DNA of 64,000 nt from assembly GCF_001571385.1 (NCBI RefSeq), contig NZ_BCNW01000001.1, positions 1,302,001 to 1,366,000 of the forward strand, written 5' to 3'. This DNA comes from Methanofollis ethanolicus. Lineage in GTDB: Archaea; Halobacteriota; Methanomicrobia; Methanomicrobiales; Methanofollaceae. A program made the position numbers and the translations under genes. The notes beneath the pieces were generated by a model. It did no database searches, was not told the DNA's origin, and saw only the letters and a list, made by a program, of their open reading frames with translations. Shown here in pieces: positions 20,117 through 49,118 of the stretch; the stretch's first letter is position 1; each line of letters starts with the position of its first letter.

Positions 20117-20559
20117 AGGGTACCCCCTTCCTCTTCGGAGTTTCCCGTTCACTCTTCTTCGGCTCCATTGGGAGCAACGAGCACTAACTAACTTAAGAGG
20201 TTCTTCAGGTCTTCGCTGTGCGAACGAAGTGAGCAGGAGAGAGCCATTAGGCTTCCCCGAGTAGTCCCGCGGCGGGCCAGAGGGGAAGGCAAGGGTCCGC
20301 ACATCCTCTCAGAGAACTTGGAGGACACATCCACCAGAGGGATTCTCCAGGGCCGAAGGAGGATATAACTCGATCTCTTTTGTTCGAAATAAGCGAACAT
20401 TTTAAGTATGGTTTTCTGCGTGTGTGGATACTCTCTATTTGCCCACTAAGAAGCCAAAATTGGGAACACGCCATTCAAGTTGCGATTGTGCCCGATATTT
20501 GTCGTAATATCTTCCGGAATAGGATGAGTGGTGGGAAATATCAGCAAATGGTGATGTGA
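20117..20559. other. intergenic region with a dispersed-repeat copy
   Basis: No gene is seen. The part 20190-20375 carries a copy of the dispersed family (GTGCGAACGAAGTGAGCA near 20218). An inverted repeat TGTTCG-N7-CGAACA at 20381-20399 followed by TTTT could be a terminator or an operator. The end holds the ribosome-binding site of the exported-protein gene (GGTGATGTGA). Confidence 0.5.
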
Positions 20560-21294
20560 ATGGATCATACGAGAATGAAAATTTTCATGGCGACTCTGCT
20601 GTTAGTAAGCAGTTTATGTTTGCCAGCATCTGCGTGGAGTTACAGCATAACCAACATCATGAACTATGATGATCCCGGGACAACGGATCTTACGAACGGA
20701 AACGCCGTCTGTGGCATTGTCAGTCAACGCCTGCAGGGGGCGGGATGGACAGAGTTTTTCTCGCATAGTGATGCAAGCGCCGTACGGGCCGATTTTGGAA
20801 CAGATAGTGGAGGATATCAGGGTCTAGACGGTGCACATTTCCACTGGCATTATGGGCATGGAGTTATGCCAGGCACCATGTCAAGCATCTGCCTCTCGAA
20901 CTATCCCTACGGATATGTGAATCGAGATCATGTGTACAAGAAATGGGATAATGCCAATAAATGGACGGTCATATATTCGTGTCTGGTCCTCAAGGATCGC
21001 CAATGGGGCAACGCTCTCAAGACAGCGCACGGGATACTGGGTTTTGAAACAACCGTCACGGGGACAACGTCACTTCCGACCAGTTTCTTTTCATACGCGA
21101 TTGATAACGATTACTGCATGTCAAGCGCGTGGTATTACAGCACGCTTAACTCGTTCGGATCTTCTGTGACGGCAGTTGCCATCGCCGACACCCAGCTGCA
21201 AATGACAAGCGATCAGTTGCCGGGGCAGGGTCATCTTGAGCCTGACGAGGATCCGGATGACAACAATGGGTATTACAGTTCCTGGGCATGCTAG
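20560..21294 (+). CDS. exported protein, DUF6345-like
   Basis: This 244-aa protein has a signal peptide (MKIFMATLLLVSSLCLPASA, about residues 6-25) and a mature domain with several cysteines and a striking HFHWHYGHG motif (about residue 96), followed by VNRDHVYKKW. The HxHxHxxH-like block could bind a metal. It resembles secreted proteins annotated DUF6345 in archaea, but I hold this loosely. It is first of four same-strand genes ending with a membrane-anchored regulator. Codon use is AT-richer than the core genes. Confidence 0.65.
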   Translation: MDHTRMKIFMATLLLVSSLCLPASAWSYSITNIMNYDDPGTTDLTNGNAVCGIVSQRLQGAGWTEFFSHSDASAVRADFGTDSGGYQGLDGAHFHWHYGHGVMPGTMSSICLSNYPYGYVNRDHVYKKWDNANKWTVIYSCLVLKDRQWGNALKTAHGILGFETTVTGTTSLPTSFFSYAIDNDYCMSSAWYYSTLNSFGSSVTAVAIADTQLQMTSDQLPGQGHLEPDEDPDDNNGYYSSWAC

Positions 21295-21308: not shown

Positions 21309-22070
21309 ATGAAGTATCTGGGAGTTTTAATTTTTGGAATCATTGTATGCAGCGTGGGCCTCGGTCTCTTTGCGGAGGTAGCCCATTCGAGTTTGCATCC
21401 TGCAGAGTCACTTCAGGGACAGGATCTGAATATTGTTATGGCGAGTGCCCTCCCCTCCGGCCCCGAAACTGCGCCGAATTACAGGGTGATCGACTGCGAG
21501 ACCTTCCAGGAGATCAAGGAACCCAACATCATGGCAGCAAGAGAAAACCTGCCAACTGAGCAGGAGGGTCTGACCATTGCAGAGAAAATTCTTGGTGCAT
21601 ACAGCGGCATCCCCGACGATGCCGTCGTTACCCACGCGGAAACGATATATCTTCGAGAGTATAACACGACGAGTCTTGAAGAGACCAGAAAAACACCCAT
21701 GTGGGTGCACATAATCTTCGGGCAGGAACTGGACGGTATGCCTGTTGTCGGGCCCGGGGCAGAGATCATCGTCGATCTCGGTGAAAATGGCAAGGTGCTC
21801 CATGTCCAGAAGATATGGCGGACGGTAGAAAAGGCTGAAAATGTCCCGCTCATCACTGCGGGTGCTGCGCTCGAAAAACTCAGGAAGGGAGAAACCATCA
21901 ACAGACCACTATCGCTGACAGGAACTATCGAGATCAACCGGGTCACGCTGGGCTATTATGCTGAAGAACCAGACATAACCCAGGAGTATCTCACCCCGGC
22001 ATGGATATTCTACGGAACAGATGGTGCAAATGCCTCCGAAGTTCTCTGTGTGAGTGCCATCGATGGATAA
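21309..22070 (+). CDS. exported or membrane-anchored protein of unknown function
   Basis: This 253-aa protein starts with one hydrophobic segment (residues 4-24) acting as signal or anchor, followed by an extracytoplasmic domain of alternating strands. The segment GMPVVGPGAEIIVDLGENGKVL is like the conserved strand-turn of PepSY/YycI-type inhibitory domains. GGAGGA 7 nt upstream supports the ATG at 21309, and the gene lies 14 bp after the DUF6345-like gene. It could be a chaperone or inhibitor of the neighbouring secreted products; that is inference from fold resemblance only. Confidence 0.6.
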   Translation: MKYLGVLIFGIIVCSVGLGLFAEVAHSSLHPAESLQGQDLNIVMASALPSGPETAPNYRVIDCETFQEIKEPNIMAARENLPTEQEGLTIAEKILGAYSGIPDDAVVTHAETIYLREYNTTSLEETRKTPMWVHIIFGQELDGMPVVGPGAEIIVDLGENGKVLHVQKIWRTVEKAENVPLITAGAALEKLRKGETINRPLSLTGTIEINRVTLGYYAEEPDITQEYLTPAWIFYGTDGANASEVLCVSAIDG

Positions 22071-22389
22071 ACTCCTCTCTCTTCTTTTTGAACTGCGGGA
22101 AATGACGCTCCCGCAGGCAGGGGTGCTTCTGGGTGCCCTTTGGGGTTTTCTGGGAGTCATATGGCTTGACTTCTTTATTATGGATCCGTCGCCATTTTCG
22201 GAAGGGGGGTACTTCCTCGCGCTACCTATCACACGCTCTGTCGAGATCTTCTATGCATCTGTAGACCTGTTCATGCCGGGAATGCATATCCCGTTCATCA
22301 TGAACAACATTCTCTACCCCGTCATAGGTGCGTTCATCGGCGGTATCGCAGGTCTCGTTCTCGATATCTTCTCGGGCAGACACCCATGA
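22063..22389 (+). CDS. small membrane protein, two to three helices
   Basis: This 108-aa protein has hydrophobic stretches at about residues 17-38, 45-60 and 80-100 and no recognised family. The ATG at 22063 lies inside the last codons of the preceding gene (ATGGATAA overlap), so translation is coupled. Conservation with this cassette would support a joint role. Confidence 0.6.
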   Translation: MDKLLSLLFELREMTLPQAGVLLGALWGFLGVIWLDFFIMDPSPFSEGGYFLALPITRSVEIFYASVDLFMPGMHIPFIMNNILYPVIGAFIGGIAGLVLDIFSGRHP

Positions 22390-22426: not shown

Positions 22427-22975
22427 ATGTATATGCAGAGCAGGTTTAATCGAACAGATCGAGGCATACTATTGTCAGATGAGATTCTCCTGGACATCAC
22501 CACATTTGAAGCACTATCGTCCGAGACTCGCATATCTATCCTGAAAAATCTCGAAGCACGCCCTATGACGGTCTCCGAGATTTCAAAAATCCTCAATATC
22601 CCGAAGTCCTCTGCCTACACCCACCTTGCAAAAATGCTTGCATCAAACCTCGTAAGGCGCAAAGAAAACGATCACAAGTGGGTTTATTATGAGATATCGT
22701 ATAAAGGGTATGCGCTCCTGCATCCATCGAAAATACAGCAGGTGAAGATCATCCTCACCACCGCACTCGGGATAGGGGCGTGTGGACTCGCCGTACTGGG
22801 TGTCGATATTCTCAGCAATCTTCCGTCTCCTGAGGCCGGTGTCGCTCTGGGATCTCTTGCCGCTTCATCTCTCTTTACGACAGGTCTCATGCTCCTTGCG
22901 ACAGGATCGTTGCTCTTTGTTCTTGCCGTGTTCCTTTTGATGTCACGGTCTGACTTTATCCCGATCGGTGATTAG
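22427..22975 (+). CDS. membrane-anchored winged-helix (ArsR-like) regulator
   Basis: This 182-aa protein has an N-terminal winged helix (FEALSSETRISILKNLE, then MTVSEISKILNIPKSSAYTH as helix-turn-helix, then HKWVYYEISYKGYALLHP as the wing). Two membrane helices follow (about residues 107-130 and 143-175). A second protein of the same design is at 43128-43658. DNA binding with membrane tethering suggests direct sensing of an envelope or extracellular signal. A TATA-like TATTTTTTC about 30 nt before the ATG and no Shine-Dalgarno suggest a leaderless message. Confidence 0.8.
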   Translation: MYMQSRFNRTDRGILLSDEILLDITTFEALSSETRISILKNLEARPMTVSEISKILNIPKSSAYTHLAKMLASNLVRRKENDHKWVYYEISYKGYALLHPSKIQQVKIILTTALGIGACGLAVLGVDILSNLPSPEAGVALGSLAASSLFTTGLMLLATGSLLFVLAVFLLMSRSDFIPIGD

Positions 22976-23457
22976 GAAGACGGGGATAGGGTTTGCACAC
23001 AGGACCGCACCCAGAGGTCTCTGGAGAATCAAGAACAGATCCGGCCAATACTATGAAAGCAGTTCAAAATTGTGATCGAGGAACTCTCCAGAATTATTAT
23101 CCTTTGTCCCTTGATTGGCAAAAGGCTGCAACAACGACATTGAAAAATCAACTCTGGAGAGATGTTGAATGTTCGATGGCGACGGCCCCCTGATCATTCT
23201 CCTGAAATCTCCCGCAAGAGTTCGCACCTCCACCCCCTGACAGATAAACGATCTGCTCAGAAACCACAAATATATTATGCACCATATTTAGTGGTGGTGA
23301 TGCAAAATTCAGGGGCTTGCCTCGATGCGATGCCGGGAATTATCGATGAGATGTTCCCGGCACTAAACCCCCCCATAGGGAGTATTTCCCCACTCTAAAG
23401 GGAAATCATCCTTTTTGAGTTTGGCATCCCGGAACAAAAATTGCAGAGGTGAAGAAA
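22976..23457. other. intergenic region upstream of the secreted protease
   Basis: No convincing gene is seen; short open frames lack domains and ribosome binding sites. The stretch contains an AT-rich promoter-like patch near 23270-23290 (AAATATATTATGC) and a GAGGTGA ribosome-binding site at 23446-23452. Its unusual length before a regulated-looking gene leaves room for operators. Confidence 0.45.
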
Positions 23458-24648
23458 ATGAAAAGATTAACCGGAATTCTGTCGGTCCTGTTTATCCTGG
23501 CCTTGCTGGCCTCGGCATTTGTGGGACCTGCCGCAGCGAAACAGAATGACAGTGAACAGAACTACGTAGATGAACGTACAGATCTGACACCTGAAGAACG
23601 TGCTGATGTCATTGAGGAACTGAGATCCCATGAAAAAATTCTGGGTATTTATGGAAGTCTTCCGGACTTTAGCGATACAAAGACCTCACACCCCTGGATC
23701 TCATGGTATAGTCAGTTGGATCACTTTACTGACGATAACTTTGATTCTTTTGCAAAACCTCGCCTGTATCCCAAGGGACCGGTTATCGGCTATGGATATG
23801 ACGTTGAAGGATACATCGATGTAGGTATTCCGGAAGACTGGCCCGAAGATAACATTACGGCCACCATGGAGGAACTGTACGAAATCCTCGACAAAAAGGG
23901 GAAAGATGCAGGCTTCGAGAGTATCCCCGTAAAATTCAGGAGTGTCTCTGTCCGTCCGGACAGTCTTGTCCTCTACAGTGCGAGTAACAAATCTCGACCG
24001 ATAACTGGGGATATACAGATTCAGACAATCTTAGACAGAATTCGACCATTAATTGGAGGTATGCAGATTCAGACACTCTTAGGGAGTGATATAGCAAGTT
24101 CAACACTCGGGTGGGCTGCACAGACCTCTTCTGGCACGCGGGGTTATGTTATTTCAGCGCATTGTTCGGATGGGAGTGGAGAAACTGTCTATCAACCGAC
24201 GACCGGTTCTTCAAATGCCTGTGGGTCTGTAGGCGCTGATCCAGGATGGCCATATTCATCTTCTTACGCTGATGCAGCCTGGGTGCCATACAGCAACGTT
24301 GCAGCAAAAATTCACTCGCAGGGTGTGGATCAGAGTGTAAAAGGACATTATGACCCTTGGCCTGGCCTAACTGTTTTCAAATCCGGAAGAACAACGGGCA
24401 CGACCTCTGGATCAGTCCAAAGAAAGGATATTGTATTCTATCCATCTACACAGCGTTACTTGTATGATCAGTACTTTGCTTCATACACTGCTGAGCCTGG
24501 AGACAGCGGATCACCGGTTTATCACGTTGAGTCCGACCACGATAGGATAATTGTGGGAATTCTTTCTGGTAGTTTTTGTGGCGAAGAGTATTTTTCACCG
24601 GTATCCGGAGTGGAAACAGAACTGGGTGTCCTGCCCTTAACCAGTTGA
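23458..24648 (+). CDS. secreted chymotrypsin-like (S1-family) serine protease
   Basis: This 396-aa exported protein has a signal peptide ending near PAAA (about residue 27), a pro-region of about 180 residues, and a trypsin-like domain. The triad is visible: His235 in VISAHC, Asp272 in SYADAAWVPY and Ser350 in AEPGDSGSPVY. The order and the short catalytic domain resemble streptogrisin-like proteases. Residues 180-208 hold a duplicated RPxxGxxQIQTxL unit near the pro/mature boundary. ATG 23458 is chosen for its GAGGTGA site. Codon use is AT-rich, suggesting acquisition. Cysteines at about 236, 255 and 374 could form disulfides. Confidence 0.85.
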   Translation: MKRLTGILSVLFILALLASAFVGPAAAKQNDSEQNYVDERTDLTPEERADVIEELRSHEKILGIYGSLPDFSDTKTSHPWISWYSQLDHFTDDNFDSFAKPRLYPKGPVIGYGYDVEGYIDVGIPEDWPEDNITATMEELYEILDKKGKDAGFESIPVKFRSVSVRPDSLVLYSASNKSRPITGDIQIQTILDRIRPLIGGMQIQTLLGSDIASSTLGWAAQTSSGTRGYVISAHCSDGSGETVYQPTTGSSNACGSVGADPGWPYSSSYADAAWVPYSNVAAKIHSQGVDQSVKGHYDPWPGLTVFKSGRTTGTTSGSVQRKDIVFYPSTQRYLYDQYFASYTAEPGDSGSPVYHVESDHDRIIVGILSGSFCGEEYFSPVSGVETELGVLPLTS

Positions 24649-33880: not shown

Positions 33881-34060
33881 TTACCACATGCCCCACATGG
33901 CGTCGCAGTACAGGGCGTCGGTTTCGTCGCACAGGCGTGTGACCTCCTCGGTGAGGGCGGCGAGTTCTTCCTCCGCGTCGAAACCTGCGGCGATCTTCCA
34001 GCGGGTCTCGTCGATCCGGGCAAGGATCTCGCCTTTCAGGGCAACGATCATCGAGGTCAT
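33881..34060 (-). CDS. small coiled-coil protein (59 aa)
   Basis: This short acidic protein is nearly all helix (ALKGEILARIDETRWKIAAG, EEELAALTEEVTRLCDE) with heptad-like spacing, ending in aromatic WGMW. Its ATG overlaps the stop of the prenyltransferase-like gene (ATGA), which supports real translation. It may form a complex with that protein or with the MptD-fusion's helical domain. Not a known family to me. Confidence 0.65.
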   Translation of the reverse strand: MTSMIVALKGEILARIDETRWKIAAGFDAEEELAALTEEVTRLCDETDALYCDAMWGMW

Positions 34061-34878
34061 TGCATCTCCTCCCGGCCGTCGGCGAGCAGGAGAGTCCTGA
34101 CCGCCATCCATGTCGTCTCCAGGGTCGCCGTGCCCCCGAAGACCGAGCGGGAGAACCCGCCGGAGGGCGTCAGGCACCTGAGGACGAAAGTTCCGGCCGC
34201 AGGGGAGGGTGAGATGCCCAGGACCCGTGCGGCGGCGACGCCGGCGGCGACGTGCTCCAAGTAGGCGGGCGAGGTGCCGGGCACGTTCACGTAGCCGTAC
34301 TCCGGGTGCGTACACCTCTGAAGGAAGGCCGCCGCCTCTTTGCCGTCGGGAAAAGCACCGAGGGCGGTGCAGATGGCCATGGCGTGAAATGCCTCGACAA
34401 GTGTGGGGTATCCGCCATCCGGCGTGCGCGACGCGCGGACAGCCGCGAGAAGGCCGGACCTGACCTGCGGCGGGACAGCGATCCCGAGGCTCCGGCAGAG
34501 GTGCGCATAGAGGTACTGGCGGGTGAGCGCGCTCTCCGACTCCACCGGTTTCTCCGCTCCAGATAGCGCAGGTGCGGCCGACCGTATCCAGGGAAGGGGG
34601 TCATGCCGGGGCGGGGTGCCAAGGGCCGCAAGGGCGAGGAGAGCATAATACCCGGTCCCAAAGAACTGGTACGACCCGTCTTCCTGCTGGCGGGTGCGCA
34701 ACCATCGGGCGGTCGCCGGGTCGCCGGTCCCGGCACCGAGGGTACGGAGGGTGTCGAGTGCAAAGAAGGTGTCCGCAACATTTGGTTCGTTCAGGCGGTA
34801 GAAACAGTAGCCACCGTCCGGGCAGCGCCGGTCGGCGATATAACGGATGTAGGGTTCGGTGATAGCGTTCTCGGTCAT
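34057..34878 (-). CDS. prenyltransferase/terpene-cyclase-like alpha-alpha-barrel protein
   Basis: This 273-aa protein has repeated DGGY/DGSY units (CPDGGYCFYRL, EDGSYQFFGTG, PDGGYPTLVEA) each followed by an alanine/leucine-rich helix pair, the pattern of the PF00432 repeat found in protein prenyltransferase beta subunits and squalene cyclases. Strict zinc-ligand residues of protein prenyltransferases cannot be assigned with confidence. It is first in the long operon, coupled to the 59-aa protein. Function unknown; isoprenoid or protein modification is an inference. Confidence 0.7.
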   Translation of the reverse strand: MTENAITEPYIRYIADRRCPDGGYCFYRLNEPNVADTFFALDTLRTLGAGTGDPATARWLRTRQQEDGSYQFFGTGYYALLALAALGTPPRHDPLPWIRSAAPALSGAEKPVESESALTRQYLYAHLCRSLGIAVPPQVRSGLLAAVRASRTPDGGYPTLVEAFHAMAICTALGAFPDGKEAAAFLQRCTHPEYGYVNVPGTSPAYLEHVAAGVAAARVLGISPSPAAGTFVLRCLTPSGGFSRSVFGGTATLETTWMAVRTLLLADGREEMQ

Positions 34879-35066
34879 ACGGCAGAGTCCATGCAGAAGT
34901 CATCAGCCCTGGTGGGGCGGTTGACGGCGGACTTCATCGCCTGTACGCAGTTTTTGATCACATCACTCTGGACACGCCGTCGACATTAGTTTTTCCACGC
35001 CGTGGAGAGAATGCACCGGCGGTCGGGAGAAAAAAAAGAGGGGCTGAGGACTGAAATACCCGGCCT

Positions 35067-36689
<1,623 letters not shown>

Positions 36690-36965
36690 TCACTCCACCT
36701 TCGCAAGAATGTCTTTCCACCCGACAAAGAGGTGCTTCTCGCCGTCGATCTCAATCTCTTCGGCCGAATAGCCTCCGTAGATGACATGGTCCCCGGCGGC
36801 GACGGGGAGAGGGCGTCCGTCTTCAAAGGTACCGACAGCAACGACTGTCCCTTCTTTCCGCTTCTCCCGTGCAGAGTCAGGGAGATATATCCCGGTTATC
36901 GTCTTTTCCTCGGACCTCTCCTGTTTCATGAGAACTCTCTCACCGATAGGCTGAATTTTTGTCAT
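36690..36965 (-). CDS. groS: bacterial-type co-chaperonin GroES
   Basis: This 91-aa protein caps the GroEL ring. It shows IQPIGERVLMKQ at the start, a mobile loop (SEEKTITGIYLPDSA) and the C-terminal EKHLFVGWKDILAKVE. It lies immediately upstream of groL, the standard bacterial order. Confidence 0.96.
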   Translation of the reverse strand: MTKIQPIGERVLMKQERSEEKTITGIYLPDSAREKRKEGTVVAVGTFEDGRPLPVAAGDHVIYGGYSAEEIEIDGEKHLFVGWKDILAKVE

Positions 36966-41028: not shown

Positions 41029-41658
41029 TCACCCCCCTGCTTTCGTCTTCGGCGTGACTGTCGTGTACACCCTGACCCAGTCGTCGTAGCGGTCATAGCC
41101 GACGTACACTGTCTCCCCCGTCTCTTTCCCGAACTCCCAGAAGTACGGCCCGATCGGTTGCTCAGAGTTCATCTCCACCCAGCGGGCGGTCCAGTTCCCG
41201 TCGCGGTACCCCGCACTGCGGAGGGCGTCCTCTGCATCGGCAAGGGACGGGCGCCGCCATGCCGTCAGGTCGTCGGCACCCAGCGTCCAGGACCCGATCT
41301 TCGGACCCCCGTCGTCCCGGAGATACACCCGCGCGATCGCAACGGCACCGCCGTCCCGGGTGAGCGGGACAAGGTAATAGCGCGGGGCGCCGTCGGTCAG
41401 GGACCGGACGGTCGCCACGTCCCCCGCGACGGCACCTGAAAGGTCGGGGGCCCGGTCTGGAGGGACGGGTGGGTCCGGCGGTGTGAGAGCCGCATCGACG
41501 ACCGCGGGAATCTCTTCGGAGGGGAGGGTCTCGAAGGAAACGTCAAGTCCCTCTCCGGCCTGAGGGTATGGGAGGAGAAACAGCGTCGCTCCCCCAACCG
41601 TGCACAGCACAGCGATGAACACGGTCGCAAGGGCATAAAAAACTTTTTTTTCGGTCAT
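41029..41658 (-). CDS. exported protein related to the C-terminal domain of the C39-like peptidase
   Basis: This 209-aa protein has an N-terminal membrane or signal segment (VFYALATVFIAVLCTVGGATLF, residues 6-27), a Pro-rich spacer and a domain that matches the last about 200 residues of the adjacent peptidase: YYLVPL versus YYLIPF, ARVYLRDDGG versus ASVFIKNNGT, and FWEFGKETGETVYVGYDR versus FWEFETTTGKTVYVGYNR. The shared domain is therefore a separable unit, perhaps a binding or inhibitory module. A GAGGTGGG site precedes the ATG. Confidence 0.65.
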   Translation of the reverse strand: MTEKKVFYALATVFIAVLCTVGGATLFLLPYPQAGEGLDVSFETLPSEEIPAVVDAALTPPDPPVPPDRAPDLSGAVAGDVATVRSLTDGAPRYYLVPLTRDGGAVAIARVYLRDDGGPKIGSWTLGADDLTAWRRPSLADAEDALRSAGYRDGNWTARWVEMNSEQPIGPYFWEFGKETGETVYVGYDRYDDWVRVYTTVTPKTKAGG

Positions 41659-41688
41659 GGCCCCACCTCAAAAAATAATCAGAGGGTA

Positions 41689-42891
41689 TTAACTCCCTCC
41701 CCCCCGTGTTGGCTGGGTTAACTCATCATAGACCTGAATCCCGGTCCGGTTGTAGCCGACATAGACGGTCTTTCCGGTCGTTGTTTCGAACTCCCAGAAC
41801 GGATGACACTCCGACCAGCTCTGAACGCATGGTTTCCAGACCACGCGTGGGTGTTCGGGGATGACACCCTGATACTCTTTTTCATCCAGGGCTTTCAGGG
41901 CCTCCTCCCGGGTCGGAAGGAACCGGAATGAACCGGAATAATCAGAAGGCAGCCCGACGCATCCGCCGAAATCGGCGATGGTGCCGTTGTTCTTAATGAA
42001 GACGGAAGCGATCACCCTGGTCGTACCGTCTTTTTCAAAAGGTATCAGGTAGTAATCGCGCCACCCATTCAGTGAATGAACGTAGATCATCTCTCCGGCC
42101 TTGCAGCCTTCAAGTTCTTCCTGGAAACAACCCCACCTTTTCATCTGGTCCCATGCAAATCCAGAGATGTCCGTGTCTTCTGTGAGAGGGATGTCGTCCT
42201 CAGAATCGTCCATCAAACGCCAGTTCTCTGTTTCACCGGCATAATTCGGAGTCGATCTCTCCCAGTATCCCTGTACTGTGATATATCGGTCATACCACCG
42301 GCTCTGTTCAGAACCGGTGAAAGATACGGGTGTGAAATTGTTCATCCAGTCGTCGACAGTGAGATATCCATTGATAGGCTGAAGCAGCCAACTATCCGGG
42401 TCATGAACCCATAACCCGTTGACCGAGTAGACATGTCCCCCATATTCAAAATAATTGACACCCTTCACCAGCATCCAGTGATTACCGTTTTCTGTTAAAG
42501 AAGCAGACGGAATACCACGGTTGACAATGTCAATCGCCTGCCCTATTATGGCAGCATCTGCATGATCCCATGAATGCTCGTCGACTACAAGGTTACTCAC
42601 ATAGTGTTGTACACAATTTGCCAGTCCCACTGGATCAGTGTACCACACAGACCCCTCAAGATTGTGACTTCGGATATACTGATATAACGTATCCTGACTG
42701 ATCAAATCTCCGTGATAGTCAATCCACATCTGAGCCGATGCAGGACCACAATACCACTCTGTTTCCTGTCCATGGTAGGGAACTGCAAGGTTTACGGCAG
42801 TGTCCGCTGCCAGGACCGGATAGACCAGGAAACTTCCAGCAAGAAGAGCAAAACAGAGTATGCATGATTCTTTCTTCCATGATTGTTTCAT
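41689..42891 (-). CDS. secreted C39-like cysteine peptidase
   Basis: This 400-aa exported protein has a signal peptide ending near VLAA (about residue 29) and a papain-fold domain: Cys48 in TEWYCGPASAQMW, His138 in NGNHWMLVKGV and Asp164 in LWVHDPD. These match the catalytic triad of peptidase C39-like proteins. The C-terminal 200 residues form a second domain shared with the neighbouring 209-aa protein. ATG 42891 follows GGAGGT by 7 nt. The gene is AT-richer than the flanking core genes. Confidence 0.8.
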   Translation of the reverse strand: MKQSWKKESCILCFALLAGSFLVYPVLAADTAVNLAVPYHGQETEWYCGPASAQMWIDYHGDLISQDTLYQYIRSHNLEGSVWYTDPVGLANCVQHYVSNLVVDEHSWDHADAAIIGQAIDIVNRGIPSASLTENGNHWMLVKGVNYFEYGGHVYSVNGLWVHDPDSWLLQPINGYLTVDDWMNNFTPVSFTGSEQSRWYDRYITVQGYWERSTPNYAGETENWRLMDDSEDDIPLTEDTDISGFAWDQMKRWGCFQEELEGCKAGEMIYVHSLNGWRDYYLIPFEKDGTTRVIASVFIKNNGTIADFGGCVGLPSDYSGSFRFLPTREEALKALDEKEYQGVIPEHPRVVWKPCVQSWSECHPFWEFETTTGKTVYVGYNRTGIQVYDELTQPTRGGGS

Positions 42892-43127
42892 GAACCATAC
42901 CTCCCAAACACCCCGAACGATCGTTTGCAACGGCTGCCCCCGGCACACCCGATCATCTCCAGGGATCTGCAAAGGTCACTCGGCCCGCACGTTCAGGGGC
43001 AGACACGACCCGCGCAGATTTCGGATGCCATCCGGGCATCCTCACCGATGGTTCGGTCTTTGAATGCCATGAAATCGGGGAAAGTGTTCGATCCCGATCG
43101 AACGGATTCGAAAAATATATATTAGAA

Positions 43128-43658
43128 CTATGAAATGTCCTGATCGATCCTACGGCGCTTTCGCCACCGGAGATATGCATACCCCACGAGGACGCTGCCG
43201 ATCAGCGTCAGTGCGAGCCCGAGGATCAGCAGATCCCACGGCGGGGCCTCCTGTACCTGAGCGCCTCCGCCCCCCAACATGGGGATTCCGGGGGTTTCAT
43301 CGGACAACAACACAACCAGAAACTTCGCCAGGGCAGCGATTCCCCCGACGAATGTCACCAGTGCGGTGGCGAGGAGTATCCTGATCCTGACGCCGTCGTG
43401 TGGATACAGGAGAGCATGCCCCTCCGGGGTGAGGGCGTAGTATACCCAGGCATGCCCGTCATCCTCGGCGGCGACAAAACCGGCGTCGACGAGAACACGG
43501 AGGTGATGGTGGACCGTGGACTTTGCCAGGTCAAGGTCGGCGGCCAGTTCGGCGATCGTCATCCTGCGTACATTCAGGTCTTTCAGCATCCTGAGCCTGG
43601 ACTCAGATGCGAGAGCCGTGAATGCGTCCTTCGTCAGGACGACGTCAACCGGGTCCAT
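43128..43658 (-). CDS. membrane-anchored winged-helix (ArsR-like) regulator
   Basis: This 176-aa protein has the same plan as the one at 22427-22975: an N-terminal winged helix (ALASESRLRMLKDLN, MTIAELAADLDLAKSTVHHH, HAWVYYALTPEGHALLYP) and two C-terminal membrane helices (about residues 88-115 and 138-162), ending in a basic RWRKRRR tail. It lies 236 bp upstream of the C39-like peptidase gene on the same strand. AGATATATTA about 25-30 nt before the ATG and no Shine-Dalgarno indicate a leaderless message. Confidence 0.8.
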   Translation of the reverse strand: MDPVDVVLTKDAFTALASESRLRMLKDLNVRRMTIAELAADLDLAKSTVHHHLRVLVDAGFVAAEDDGHAWVYYALTPEGHALLYPHDGVRIRILLATALVTFVGGIAALAKFLVVLLSDETPGIPMLGGGGAQVQEAPPWDLLILGLALTLIGSVLVGYAYLRWRKRRRIDQDIS

Positions 43659-43821: not shown

Positions 43822-45915
43822 TCAGATCAACCGCACGATCCCCCGCCGCGGCTGCATCGCCTCGCCGAAGCGGACCATCTTGTCGAGGTTCTCCTGCACC
43901 TCGTCGCGGTCAAAACCCTGCTGGACCAGAATCTCGACGACCTCCTCGGTCTTTGCGGTGCCGTCATCGCCGCCGAGCGCCTTTATCGTCTCCCTGATGG
44001 TGCGAATGATGTCCCTCTTCTTCTTTGTGATCCCGGTCGTCCACTTGTCGATGTCCAGGGTGCCGGTCTCGGCATCGTAGGCGACCTGCCGCAGGCAGGC
44101 GTCCACGATCATGATCACACGCTCCGCGTCCTCGGGCTCGACCGTCCGCGAGAGCCGCATCCTGGCGCTCGCCTCGCCGAGGCGGATCAGCGCTTCGAGT
44201 TGCCGGGCCGTCACCGGCACCGGCTTGTTCTCGTCGGCGAGGTCGCGGAGCCGGAGATAATACGTGATGAGCATCTCCTTTGCGCCGTCGGTGATGAGGG
44301 GCGTCACATGTCTCTTCGCGTACGCGATATATTTCCGCAGGAGTTCGGGCGCGATCGGCGGCTCCACCACCGTGCTCTCGCTCGCCAGGAGGTCGATATG
44401 CGCCGGGGTGAGGGGGCCCTCCTGCTTCTGCATGATCAGTTCCCCGACCCGGTGGGCCGAGATGATGTGCCGGGCGATCGCCGTGTCCCGCGTATGATCG
44501 GGCTTGTCTGTCAGGACGAAGATGAGGTCGAAACGGGAGAGGAGGGAGGGCGGCATGTTGATCTGCTCGGCGATCGGGACGAAGGCGTCGAACCGCCCGA
44601 GTTTCGGGTTTGCCGCGCCGAGGAGGGCGCAGCGGGAGCGGAGGGTCGCCGTGATCCCGGCTTTTGCGACCGAAATACTCTGCTGCTCCATCGCCTCGTG
44701 GAGGGCCGACCGGTCCTCCTTCTGCATCTTGTCCATCTCGTCCACCGCGGCGAGCCCCATATCCGCGAGGACAAGGGCCCCGGCCTCCAGGGTCCAGCTC
44801 CCGTCGCCGAAGTCGTCCTTCACCGCGGTCGCCGTGAGACCTGCCGAGGTCGAGGACTTGCCCGAGGTGTACACGCCCCTGGGAGAGATCTGCACGACGT
44901 ACCTGAGGATCTGGGACTTCGCGATTCCCGGATCTCCGACAAGGAGGACATGGATGTCGCCGCGGAGACGGGAGCCGTCAGGGAGGTCCTTCGCCACCCC
45001 GCCGAAGAGCTGGAGAGCGATCGCCTCCTTCACCTCGGTGTTCCCGTAGATCGAGGGTGCGATCGAGCCGGTGATCTTCCCGTACAGTCCCGTGTCCCGG
45101 GAGAGTTCGTGGATCTCGGCCTCGTCCTCATCGGAGATGTTCACCTCTTCAAATTCCCTCTCCGGCGCCTCGATCGAGGAGCACTCCAGGGAGATGTCGA
45201 AGAGGGTGGACTTTGTCCCGTAGTTCACCCTCTGCCTGGAGCGGGGGATGCCGTTGAGGACCACCCTGTCACCGGGTGCGATCGCCCCGGTGAGGTCGTC
45301 GGTCACCTCGACGTCGAGAGTCTGGGGCCGGGCGCCGCCCCTCAGGCCCTCGGGCGACTCCTGGATCCGCACCTTTTGCGAGTCCACGTACCGGGACTTT
45401 GCCTGGAGGAGTTTCAGTTTGCGCCGGTTGCACTCCGGGTTCGGACACTCCTCGGGCTCCTCGAAGTTCCCGTAGCCCTGCCGCACCGTCGTCGTTGAGC
45501 CGCAGCCCGGACACTGAAAGACAGCCTCGACGATCCTCGGCCGCACCTCGGTCGTCTTCCTGATGATCCCCTTCAGCGAGACAAAGCGATTGATGTGGTA
45601 GGCCCTGATGTCCCTGATGCCGGTGACACGCTCGATATGGTGGAAGCGGACATTGACCTTCCCGGCCTTCTCCTCGCCTATGGCGGTGAGCTGGCGGAGG
45701 GCGTCCCTGATGTCGCCTGTCGCTTTGCCGGGGCGTTCGATCACCTCGTCCGCGAGGCGCAGGCCGGACCTGCCCGAGGCCTGCAGGGTCCGGTAGTCGA
45801 TGTACAGGGAACGCTTGAAGGGGAACTCCCTCTCGATCTCGGCGAGTTCGCGCCGGCAGTACCGGGAGAGGAAGTTTACCCATTCCCCGACCACGTCGGT
45901 GACGCCGTCTTCCAT
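43822..45915 (-). CDS. mcm: MCM replicative helicase paralogue, intein-free
   Basis: This 697-aa MCM protein has an N-terminal domain with a zinc-binding CPGC...CPNPEC pair (about residues 150-175), then the AAA+ core: Walker A VGDPGIAKSQILRY, Walker B VLADMGLAAVDEMDKM, the pre-sensor hairpin ISVAKAGITATL, and arginine finger SRFDLIF. The C-terminal winged helix is present. It starts 2 bp after the stop of the upstream MCM and is about 60-65% alike by eye, so the two are tandem duplicates. Confidence 0.93.
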   Translation of the reverse strand: MEDGVTDVVGEWVNFLSRYCRRELAEIEREFPFKRSLYIDYRTLQASGRSGLRLADEVIERPGKATGDIRDALRQLTAIGEEKAGKVNVRFHHIERVTGIRDIRAYHINRFVSLKGIIRKTTEVRPRIVEAVFQCPGCGSTTTVRQGYGNFEEPEECPNPECNRRKLKLLQAKSRYVDSQKVRIQESPEGLRGGARPQTLDVEVTDDLTGAIAPGDRVVLNGIPRSRQRVNYGTKSTLFDISLECSSIEAPEREFEEVNISDEDEAEIHELSRDTGLYGKITGSIAPSIYGNTEVKEAIALQLFGGVAKDLPDGSRLRGDIHVLLVGDPGIAKSQILRYVVQISPRGVYTSGKSSTSAGLTATAVKDDFGDGSWTLEAGALVLADMGLAAVDEMDKMQKEDRSALHEAMEQQSISVAKAGITATLRSRCALLGAANPKLGRFDAFVPIAEQINMPPSLLSRFDLIFVLTDKPDHTRDTAIARHIISAHRVGELIMQKQEGPLTPAHIDLLASESTVVEPPIAPELLRKYIAYAKRHVTPLITDGAKEMLITYYLRLRDLADENKPVPVTARQLEALIRLGEASARMRLSRTVEPEDAERVIMIVDACLRQVAYDAETGTLDIDKWTTGITKKKRDIIRTIRETIKALGGDDGTAKTEEVVEILVQQGFDRDEVQENLDKMVRFGEAMQPRRGIVRLI

Positions 45916-45917
45916 CG

Positions 45918-48900
45918 TCAGTACTCCCGTGCGAAGAGTTTGATGATGCCCGGCCGGAGTTCGACCACCTCGCCCTCGTTCTTGAGCATCTTGATAGTCG
46001 CCTCGACCTTGTCCTTTGCAAAGCCCTGCCTGGTCATCTCCTCGATCACCTGCTCGACGTTTGCGGAACCGTCGTCGCCGCCGACGTCCTTGATGACCTC
46101 CTTCACCGTTCTGATGATGTCCCGCTGCCTCTTCGAGATCCCGGTCGTCCACTTGTCGATGTCGAAGGTACCCGACTCGGCGTCATAGGCCACCTGACGG
46201 AGACAGGTGTCCACGATCTTGATCACTCTCTGGGCGTCCTCGATATCCACGGTCGGCGAGAGCCTGATCCTGGCGCTCGCCTCGCCGAGGCGGACCAGTG
46301 CCTCAAGTTGCCGCGCCGTCACCGGCACAGGCTTGTTGTTGTCGGCGAGTTTACGGAGCTGGAGATAGTAGTCCCGCAGCGCCTCTCGCGCCTCCGGGAC
46401 GATCGTGGGGAAGCAGGTCCGCTTCGCGTACGCGATGTACTTGCGGAAGAGGAGGGGCTCGATGTCGGGCGTCACCGGCTTGAGCTGCTGCTGGATATAG
46501 GCGTCGTCCACCCCTTCGACCGGCATCCGCCTCTTTTTCTCGATCAGTTCGCCGACCGCGTGGGACTTGAGGATGTGCTCCGCGATCGCAAGGTCGCGGG
46601 CTGCGTCCGGCTTGTCTGTCATGATGAAGATGAGGTCGAAACGGGAGAGGAGGGAGGGAGGCATGTTGATCTGCTCGGAGATGGGAGCGTACTCGTCGAA
46701 GCGGCCCATCTTCGGGTTTGCGGCACCGAGGAGGGCGCATCTGGAGCGGAGGGTCGCCGTGATGCCGGCTTTCGCAATAGACACCGTGTTCCCGCACCAG
46801 ACCGGCTTCCCATGCCGCCGAACATAGATGACGTGGTCAGGCACCTCCACGCAGTAAATCATGCCGGCATAATGGCCCTTCGTGATATGCCTGAGGCCAT
46901 TGGTGTTGATGCTCGGCCTGTTCTGCCCCTCCCTGATGAAGGAGACCTGATAGATGTCATGGGACAGGATCGCACGCCGACCCTCGGGAACGCGCACCTC
47001 ATCCCCCTGTCTGTGGACCACGGTGGCGTTGCCCGAGATCCCTGCCTTGAGGAGGAGCTCGGTCATATCGTCTGCCAGCTGCCGCGAGGAGGTGACATAC
47101 GCGGTCTGGCCTGTCCCCTTCCTGACCCAGCCGTCGCCGAGGACGAGGGCGTCGAGGAGGATTCGGATCTGTTCGGGGCACACCTCCTTCGCGTACTGCG
47201 GGACATATTTTTCATGGCACTTCCCGAACACTGCCAGATGGGTCGCCAGCTGCTTCGAGGAGATGGCGATGTTCTGGCCGTTATAACTCCACCTGAATCC
47301 CAGACGGTTAGTACACGCCGTCATCTTCGCAGCACGTACTCCGTCTCTCTGGGATATGTGGACGCGATACGGGACGCCGTTTGTGTACTGGACAGAGCCC
47401 TCGGAGAGATAATAACCGAGGAACTCCAGCCAGTCGTTCATCTTCAGGGCGATGGCGCCCGACTCCTCTCCGCCATGGTTCTGGTTCTTGTAAATGGTCA
47501 CCGACGGCAGTTCATAGGTCTCGACATATCTCCCCTCCCAGATGGCGTCCTTCTTGAAGCGCATCCTCCTCTGGACAGGCAGGGACTCCATCCGCCTGAG
47601 GCCGAAGCCCTCCCACTCGTTGGCACGCCTGTTCAGGTCCACGTACATGTTGTGGTTGGGTGTGACCGCGAGGTCGACCTGCCTGGAGGCGATGAAGTAC
47701 ATGTCGTCGTCGTATTCGGCAGCCACATAGGCCGTCGGCACGGCGTACGCCAACCTGCCGTCCGGCGTGAGCGTCGCCACACGCTCGCCCTCTTCAACGT
47801 CCCTGAAGAGCCGCCAGCCGTGCTCGGTGAGGATCTCGGTCTGGTCATCATAGCACTGCTGCTCCATCGCCTCGTGGAGGGCCGATCTGTCCTCCTTGTC
47901 CATCTTGTCCAGTTCGTCGACCGCGGCCATACCCATATCCGCGAGCACGAGGGCGCCCGCCTCCAGGGTCCAGCGGCCGTCGCCGAACTCGTCTTTCACC
48001 GCGGTCGCGGTCAGGCCCGCCGAGGTCGAGGACTTGCCCGAGGTGTAGATGCCGCGGGGAGAGAGTTGCACGATATACCTGAGGAGCTGGGACTTTGCGA
48101 TACCCGGGTCGCCGACCAGAAGGATGTGGATGTCGCCGCGGAGACGGGAACTGTCAGGCATCTCCTTCGGGATCCCGCCGAAGAGCTGGAGGGCGACTGC
48201 CTCCTTTACGTCCGTGTTTCCGTAGATCGTCGGGGCGATGGACCGGGCGATCTTCGAGTAGATCTTCGGGTCATTTGAGAGTTCCTGGATCTCGGCCTCG
48301 TCCTCCTCGGAGATATTCACTTCCTCGAACTCCTTCTCGGCCACCTCGATCGCGTTGCACTCCAGGTAGATGTCGAAGAGAGTGGACTTCGTGCCCGCGT
48401 TGATCCGCTGGAAAGACCTGAGGATGCCGGTGATCACCACCCTGTCGCCGGGCGCGGAACTGCCTGTCAGGTCGTCGGTCACGTCCACGTCGATGGTCTG
48501 CGGCTGCTCGCCGCCCCGCAGGCCCTCGGGCGACTCCTGGATCCGCAGTTTCTGGGCGTCCAGAAACTCGGACTTCTCGGGCACAAGTTCGAGGGGAGTC
48601 TTCTTCTGGCAGGTGGCGCAGACCCGGAAGGGGTCCTGGAACCGGCCGTAGGTCTGGGAGTACGGCGGGGTGAGTTGCCCGCACTCCAGGCATTTGAAGA
48701 CCGCCGCGACGATCCTCGGCCTGACCTCGGTCGTCTTCCTGAGGATCCCTTCCACGGCGACGAAGGTGTTGATCTGGTTTGCCCTGATGTCCCGGATCTT
48801 CGTCTTCCTGGTGAGGTTCATGAACCTGACGTGGACGAGGCGCCTGTCCTTCTCCTCGATGATGCCGAGGCGGACGAGGGCGTCCTTGACGTCGTTCATC

Positions 48901-49118
48901 ACCTTTTCGGGTCGTTCGATGAGTTCGTCGGCGAGAGCGAGACCGCGCTTCCCGAATGCTTCGAGGTTCCTGTAATCGATGTAGAATGAGCGCTTGTGCG
49001 GGAATTCCTTCGAGAGTTCGACCCGCTCTTTCCGGTTGTACTGCCGCTTGAGGAATGTCTCCCAGTCGCTGACGACATCGGTCACTTCAGTGTTCTGGCG
49101 GGGTGACATTGATACCAT
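45918..49118 (-). CDS. mcm: MCM replicative helicase with intein
   Basis: This 1066-aa precursor contains a full MCM protein of 710 aa interrupted by a 356-aa intein (residues 422-777). The MCM part has Walker A VGDPGIAKSQLLRY, Walker B LADMGMAAVDELDKM and arginine finger SRFDLIF, plus an N-terminal zinc site (CLEC...CATC). Splicing would rejoin EAMEQQ with TVSIAKAGI, exactly matching the intact paralogue. Gene order RFC small subunit-MCM-MCM on one strand suggests a replication operon. Start may be ATG 49118 or 49109. Confidence 0.95.
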   Translation of the reverse strand: MVSMSPRQNTEVTDVVSDWETFLKRQYNRKERVELSKEFPHKRSFYIDYRNLEAFGKRGLALADELIERPEKVMNDVKDALVRLGIIEEKDRRLVHVRFMNLTRKTKIRDIRANQINTFVAVEGILRKTTEVRPRIVAAVFKCLECGQLTPPYSQTYGRFQDPFRVCATCQKKTPLELVPEKSEFLDAQKLRIQESPEGLRGGEQPQTIDVDVTDDLTGSSAPGDRVVITGILRSFQRINAGTKSTLFDIYLECNAIEVAEKEFEEVNISEEDEAEIQELSNDPKIYSKIARSIAPTIYGNTDVKEAVALQLFGGIPKEMPDSSRLRGDIHILLVGDPGIAKSQLLRYIVQLSPRGIYTSGKSSTSAGLTATAVKDEFGDGRWTLEAGALVLADMGMAAVDELDKMDKEDRSALHEAMEQQCYDDQTEILTEHGWRLFRDVEEGERVATLTPDGRLAYAVPTAYVAAEYDDDMYFIASRQVDLAVTPNHNMYVDLNRRANEWEGFGLRRMESLPVQRRMRFKKDAIWEGRYVETYELPSVTIYKNQNHGGEESGAIALKMNDWLEFLGYYLSEGSVQYTNGVPYRVHISQRDGVRAAKMTACTNRLGFRWSYNGQNIAISSKQLATHLAVFGKCHEKYVPQYAKEVCPEQIRILLDALVLGDGWVRKGTGQTAYVTSSRQLADDMTELLLKAGISGNATVVHRQGDEVRVPEGRRAILSHDIYQVSFIREGQNRPSINTNGLRHITKGHYAGMIYCVEVPDHVIYVRRHGKPVWCGNTVSIAKAGITATLRSRCALLGAANPKMGRFDEYAPISEQINMPPSLLSRFDLIFIMTDKPDAARDLAIAEHILKSHAVGELIEKKRRMPVEGVDDAYIQQQLKPVTPDIEPLLFRKYIAYAKRTCFPTIVPEAREALRDYYLQLRKLADNNKPVPVTARQLEALVRLGEASARIRLSPTVDIEDAQRVIKIVDTCLRQVAYDAESGTFDIDKWTTGISKRQRDIIRTVKEVIKDVGGDDGSANVEQVIEEMTRQGFAKDKVEATIKMLKNEGEVVELRPGIIKLFAREY
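46788..47855 (-). mobile_element. LAGLIDADG-type intein in MCM
   Basis: The insert encodes 356 residues starting with Cys (CYDDQTEI) and ending in Gly-Asn before an extein Thr. Block B (VTPNHNMYV) carries the TxxH-like motif, and two LAGLIDADG-like helices are LGYYLSEG (about 147-154) and LLDALVLGDG (about 233-242), so a homing endonuclease is present and looks intact. The penultimate residue is Gly rather than the usual His, a known but less common variant. It sits between the helix ending EAMEQQ and the pre-sensor beta hairpin. Confidence 0.93.

Follow-up and report, generated by a model that had tools for sequence, protein, structure and literature searches.

Membrane-anchored ArsR-like regulators paired with exported proteases and a candidate palindromic operator in Methanomicrobiales

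Regulator loci in the window

The window is a 64,000-nucleotide stretch of the Methanofollis ethanolicus genome and contains two paralogous regulators, A (43128–43658, minus strand) and B (22427–22975, plus strand, with the true start possibly at 22472). Both score above cut-off with the HTH_5 and HTH_20 profiles (winged helix of the ArsR type) and Foldseek matches the regulator to ArsR-family chains; the family cut-offs together with the ArsR structure match place them in the ArsR-like winged-helix class. With the HTH_metalloreg profile (cut-off 55), A is above (61.1) and B below (50.5). A sequence-only reading of this DNA had described the two as alike in the order of their motifs and in two C-terminal helices, and comparison agrees (36% identity over 106 residues, E 8e-25, the quoted motifs included). 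Hydropathy identifies the C-terminal hydrophobic helices in A and in B. In the AlphaFold model of A, the winged helix spans residues 10–76 and, with a short helix, ends at 84; long helices follow at 88–119 and 141–175, joined by a loop of about 20 residues of low confidence (pLDDT near 55). No sensor domain is found in the regulators, A consisting beyond the winged helix of the two modelled helices and this loop. Among the roughly 70 family members, hydropathy shows the two-helix design in nearly every one, with membrane insertion predicted.

Regulator A is followed by an exported C39_2 peptidase (41689–42891, minus strand) and then by a smaller exported protein (41029–41658, minus strand). 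The C39_2 profile gives 31.3 bits against a cut-off of 24, and Q42, C48 and H138 are invariant in the alignment, the Cys and the His as the class demands; activity is predicted. The start is ATG 42891, preceded by GGAGGT; an upstream TTG was considered and rejected. The AlphaFold model of the C39 protein is poor (mean 48.6, with the C39 half below 40), so the fold was read for the C-terminal domain alone. This domain weakly resembles PepSY and cystatin folds (the vibriolysin propeptide, YpmB, YpeB, YycI and cystatin-like chains), matches that are suggestive at most (best Foldseek E 5e-3, VIA Z 5–6). The 41029–41658 product was considered as a second peptidase and rejected; it is a relative of the C-terminal domain of the C39 protein (E 2e-13) and may be an inhibitor or propeptide-like partner.

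At the second locus, an exported DUF6345 protein with GHG and Cys motifs, possibly of clan CD (20560–21294), an exported protein whose YycI (PepSY-like) similarity is under the Pfam cut-off (21309–22070) and a small protein with two predicted membrane helices (22063–22389) precede B, and an exported serine protease (23449–24648) follows it, all on the plus strand. The family profile of the protease matches alpha-lytic protease and streptogrisin B (E 1e-8 to 1e-7), and H238, D275 and S353 (GDSG) are invariant; the His-Asp-Ser triad and this similarity assign the class, with the Pfam Trypsin profile below cut-off. The peptidases at the two loci are thus of different catalytic class, C39 at one and alpha-lytic/streptogrisin-type serine protease at the other, as the earlier reading had stated.

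The genome (2.71 Mb) encodes four full-length paralogous regulators, A to D, each adjoining exported genes: a C39 peptidase for A, an alpha-lytic-type serine protease for B, a candidate clan-CD-like protein for C and a broken C39 gene for D. After regulator C come an exported protein with SHG and AGAC motifs, which matches the profile of a family that we call c8 (GHG/C motif), and then a PepSY/YcdB-like exported protein; L012:7802–8497 matches the c8 profile (92%). GHG and C are invariant within the DUF6345 family and likewise within the c8 family. The two profiles gave no convincing alignment with each other, and the sole PDB match of c8 is a CHAT-domain protein (E 0.13). Clan CD is defined by a caspase-like fold with His-Gly and Cys; judged by these motifs, both families are possibly clan CD peptidases. 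Literature searches on DUF6345, or on Methanoculleus with serpin, found nothing. Regulator D is followed by a frameshifted gene, in which a signal peptide and the N-terminal portion of a C39b protein survive but the peptidase domain is missing. This partner gene is broken (L013:9664–10361, plus strand), yet regulator D and its operator (about L013:9539–9556) persist.

The window holds three further features. A fluoride riboswitch (34887–34950, minus strand; 56.8 bits, gathering threshold 34) directly precedes a gene with a prenyltransferase alpha-alpha toroid domain (34057–34878), an unexpected partner. Two tandem MCM helicase genes lie at 43822–49118 (minus strand); one, of 1066 residues, has a LAGLIDADG-containing insert in its P-loop domain, probably an intein. 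A Cpn10 gene followed by a 538-residue gene resembling a GroEL-type chaperonin is present, in an archaeon, at 35067–36929 (minus strand).

Association with exported proteases across Methanomicrobiales

Regulator matches are present in 51 of 120 genomes of Methanomicrobiales. A simple codon model served to predict genes around the strong matches, as well as in 13 control stretches, and the neighbouring genes were then clustered; Pfam supplied names for the partner families (serpin, C39_2, PepSY, YycI, DUF6345 and M12 reprolysin). The regulators are paired with exported peptidases far beyond chance. Within 5 kb of a C39, S1-like, DUF6345, c8 or serpin gene lie 59 of 74 regulators (46 genomes), compared with one of 93 other HTH_5 regulators, the best-scoring among the matches listed; the partner families were picked after the neighbours had been seen, those neighbours supplied the sequences for the c8 and S1 profiles, and the counts overstate the number of independent cases because many of the 74 are close orthologues (Methanoculleus). 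Each of the five families is 37–120 times above uniform expectation near regulators. An exported gene is directly adjacent to 50 of 57 regulators and to 27 of 198 control genes (Fisher p 1e-25), by a signal-peptide rule that is crude, though identical for both. The enrichment of exported peptidases near these regulators relative to other genes, on which the sequence-only reading had staked its proposal, is therefore present.

Seven genera have S1-like genes next to regulators, six have c8, three DUF6345 and one serpin; C39 is found there in four genera and one Methanoregula record. Since the partners include serpins and PepSY/YycI-like proteins, the theme goes beyond peptidases to proteases and their likely inhibitors. 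Judging from gene content, a protease and a likely inhibitor or propeptide seem to occur together at many loci (PepSY/YycI-like neighbours, or serpins elsewhere).

In the tree, regulator clades track partner class: the S1 clade has 8 rows (support 99), C39b 4 rows (99) and c8 with relatives 28 rows (96), while support is lower for the clade with C39 and serpin partners (clade A). At one conserved Methanoculleus site, some loci have a serpin gene as partner, others a C39 peptidase gene, and others the two in series.

Candidate operator

Aligning the gaps between regulators and partners revealed the palindrome GTTCGA-N6-TCGAAC in clade A loci, before C39 and serpin partners alike; where the two stand in series, each gene has a site of its own. 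In the window it lies in the C39 promoter region (43086–43103). It has only one other exact copy in the source genome (2.7 Mb), beside regulator D. A reading as a tRNA T-arm was rejected, as no tRNA lies there and the genome has only the two exact sites. The gap from operator to C39 start (42892–43085, minus strand) is about 195 bases, similar to the roughly 200 at Methanoculleus C39 loci, and this leader matched no RNA family. A second form, GTTCGG-N6-CCGAAC, precedes c8 genes and also M12 genes, and in Methanoculleus it lies some 300 bases 5' of DUF6345 genes. At regulator C, TTCGGAAATTTCCGAA precedes the partner gene, and the genome has just one other site of this kind. The common pattern, TTCG-N8-CGAA, does not occur in 260 kb of control sequence, and reversed control patterns gave no site for the GTTCGA type and one for the GTTCGG type. 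We propose this palindrome, new here and present in the promoters of most partner genes, as a candidate operator and a very probable binding site of the regulator.

The two forms follow the recognition helix. Residue 51 agrees with operator base 6 in 68 of 68 cases: an A at this base goes with His (38/38) and a G with Glu, Gln or Asp (30/30). The match is consistent and not statistically independent, because residue and base have each switched only twice in the tree. Across 46 genomes there are 30 exact GTTCGA-N6-TCGAAC sites, 26 within 4 kb of His-type regulators and none near the Glu/Gln type; of the 47 sites of GTTCGG-N6-CCGAAC, 35 have a Glu/Gln-type regulator within 8 kb, and none is near the His type.

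The TTCG operator is missing at DUF6345-linked regulators (0/5 have it) and at most S1-linked ones (2/10 have it); these clade members probably read other operators. ATTAG-N8-CTAAT near S1-linked regulators is a possible operator, found at two loci only, and we place no weight on it. A variant, GTTCG-N7-CGAAC, lies 5' of the DUF6345 gene of the window (20382–20398) and was left uncounted because the same pattern occurs once in the 260 kb of control sequence. At L111:2584–4039 (plus strand), a distant archaeal relative of the regulator has a GTTCGG-type site nearby (G at base 6), and the gene after this relative encodes an exported DUF4349 protein and no peptidase.

The sign of control is ambiguous. 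Among 38 non-redundant sites, most have an A/T-rich element 11–13 bases 3' of the operator, which would suit an activator. A TATA-like element 5' of the operator, about 20 bases away in clade A and otherwise about 10, would suit a repressor. At the A locus, the TATA-like or T-rich element 5' of the operator (43111–43124, minus strand) may be a promoter or the end of the regulator transcript.

Proposed mechanism and alternatives

The regulators are, we think probably, membrane-anchored ArsR-like one-component proteins that read a palindrome and control their exported protease and inhibitor neighbours. A regulator dimer would read TTCG-N8-CGAA in neighbouring promoters, and the targets would be exported proteases and likely inhibitors (C39 peptidases, GHG/C-motif proteins, M12 metalloproteases and serpins). 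The two C-terminal helices would tether the regulator and let it respond to a cue at the membrane or beyond it. Direct control of the partner genes appears well supported, because the conserved candidate operator precedes them. The architecture (in its predicted form), the gene association, the candidate operator and its match to the recognition helix can be established from sequence; envelope sensing we infer from the membrane helices alone.

The last step has the strongest competitor. The helices might only hold the regulator at the membrane, with an intracellular cue or the amount of regulator in control. The lack of a sensor domain suits this, as does the short, poorly modelled and weakly conserved loop; on the other side, a two-helix design in nearly all members and partners that are nearly always exported suggest, without proving, an outward-facing signal, and we judge tethering without sensing to be rather unlikely. 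The sequence-only reading had envisaged envelope-sensing regulators tied to extracellular proteolysis. The tie to proteolysis is supported, through the survey and the candidate operator; the envelope-sensing part is conjectural, there being no sensor domain.

It is also conceivable that a different soluble protein reads the palindrome and that the membrane regulator acts on other targets or on itself alone. Binding of the palindrome by the regulator is a prediction and some regulators of the same architecture have no operator. Against this, each operator variant adjoins the matching recognition-helix type and never the other, even where both variants occur within a single genome, and exact copies are nearly confined to regulator loci. 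A separate reader is therefore very improbable. We give equally little credit to a mere co-accumulation of regulators and exported genes in fast-evolving islands rich in secreted proteins, without control of neighbours: membrane and secreted proteins are over-represented in archaeal dark-matter islands, where C39 and PepSY/M4 families are frequent (PMC4158269), and several of our loci have long runs of exported genes, but the operator sits in partner promoters and is almost absent elsewhere, regulator clades follow partner class, the Methanoculleus clade A site lies among conserved housekeeping-like genes, and other HTH_5 regulators have no such association.

Beyond direct control by a tethered regulator, we tentatively envisage a modular kit, in which a regulator whose operator code depends partly on one recognition-helix residue is combined with exchangeable C39, S1, GHG/C, M12 and serpin cassettes and senses extracellular proteolysis or its products directly. 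This is a bolder proposal, and we hold it as possible.

To our knowledge, little is known about archaeal control of exported proteolysis or about how membrane-tethered archaeal regulators reach DNA. The loci would offer a simple, testable circuit for extracellular proteolysis in methane-producing archaea, with natural regulator pairs of different specificity in one genome, exchangeable partners and a single specificity residue. They also place the exported DUF6345, c8 and PepSY/YycI-like families, whose role is obscure, in one probable regulated set.

Comparison with known systems

ArnR and ArnR1 of Sulfolobus acidocaldarius are membrane-bound one-component regulators with an N-terminal HTH and two C-terminal transmembrane helices (PMC6396743). 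The present regulators share the HTH and the two-helix tether. ArnR and ArnR1, however, have a HAMP-like and sensor domain between the HTH and the membrane helices and have archaellum and pili targets, whereas in the model of A the first long helix begins at residue 88, just after the short helix that ends at 84, leaving no such domain, and the genes next to the present regulators encode exported proteases and inhibitors. Transmembrane transcription regulators (TTRs) are enriched in Methanomicrobia and combine a DNA-binding domain and a transmembrane region in one chain, as the present regulators are predicted to do; they are a descriptive class, mostly single-pass, and the available part of its description does not contain the present family, operator or partners (PMC10269533). 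We found no description of the family or its operator in the literature searched, of which coverage was partial.

The ArsR/SmtB regulators CzrA, SmtB, HlyU and BigR share the winged-helix fold and sequence similarity with the present family. They are soluble, whereas the present family has a two-helix membrane domain and is called ArsR-like for its winged helix. In the SdpI/SdpR system of Bacillus subtilis, the activity of an ArsR-like autorepressor is set at the membrane. That system consists of two proteins and the present regulator of one fused protein, so that the likeness is one of analogy, not membership (profile match below cut-off). As read from its genes and promoters, the family would be a new one with a defined regulon, within the known membrane-bound one-component regulators.
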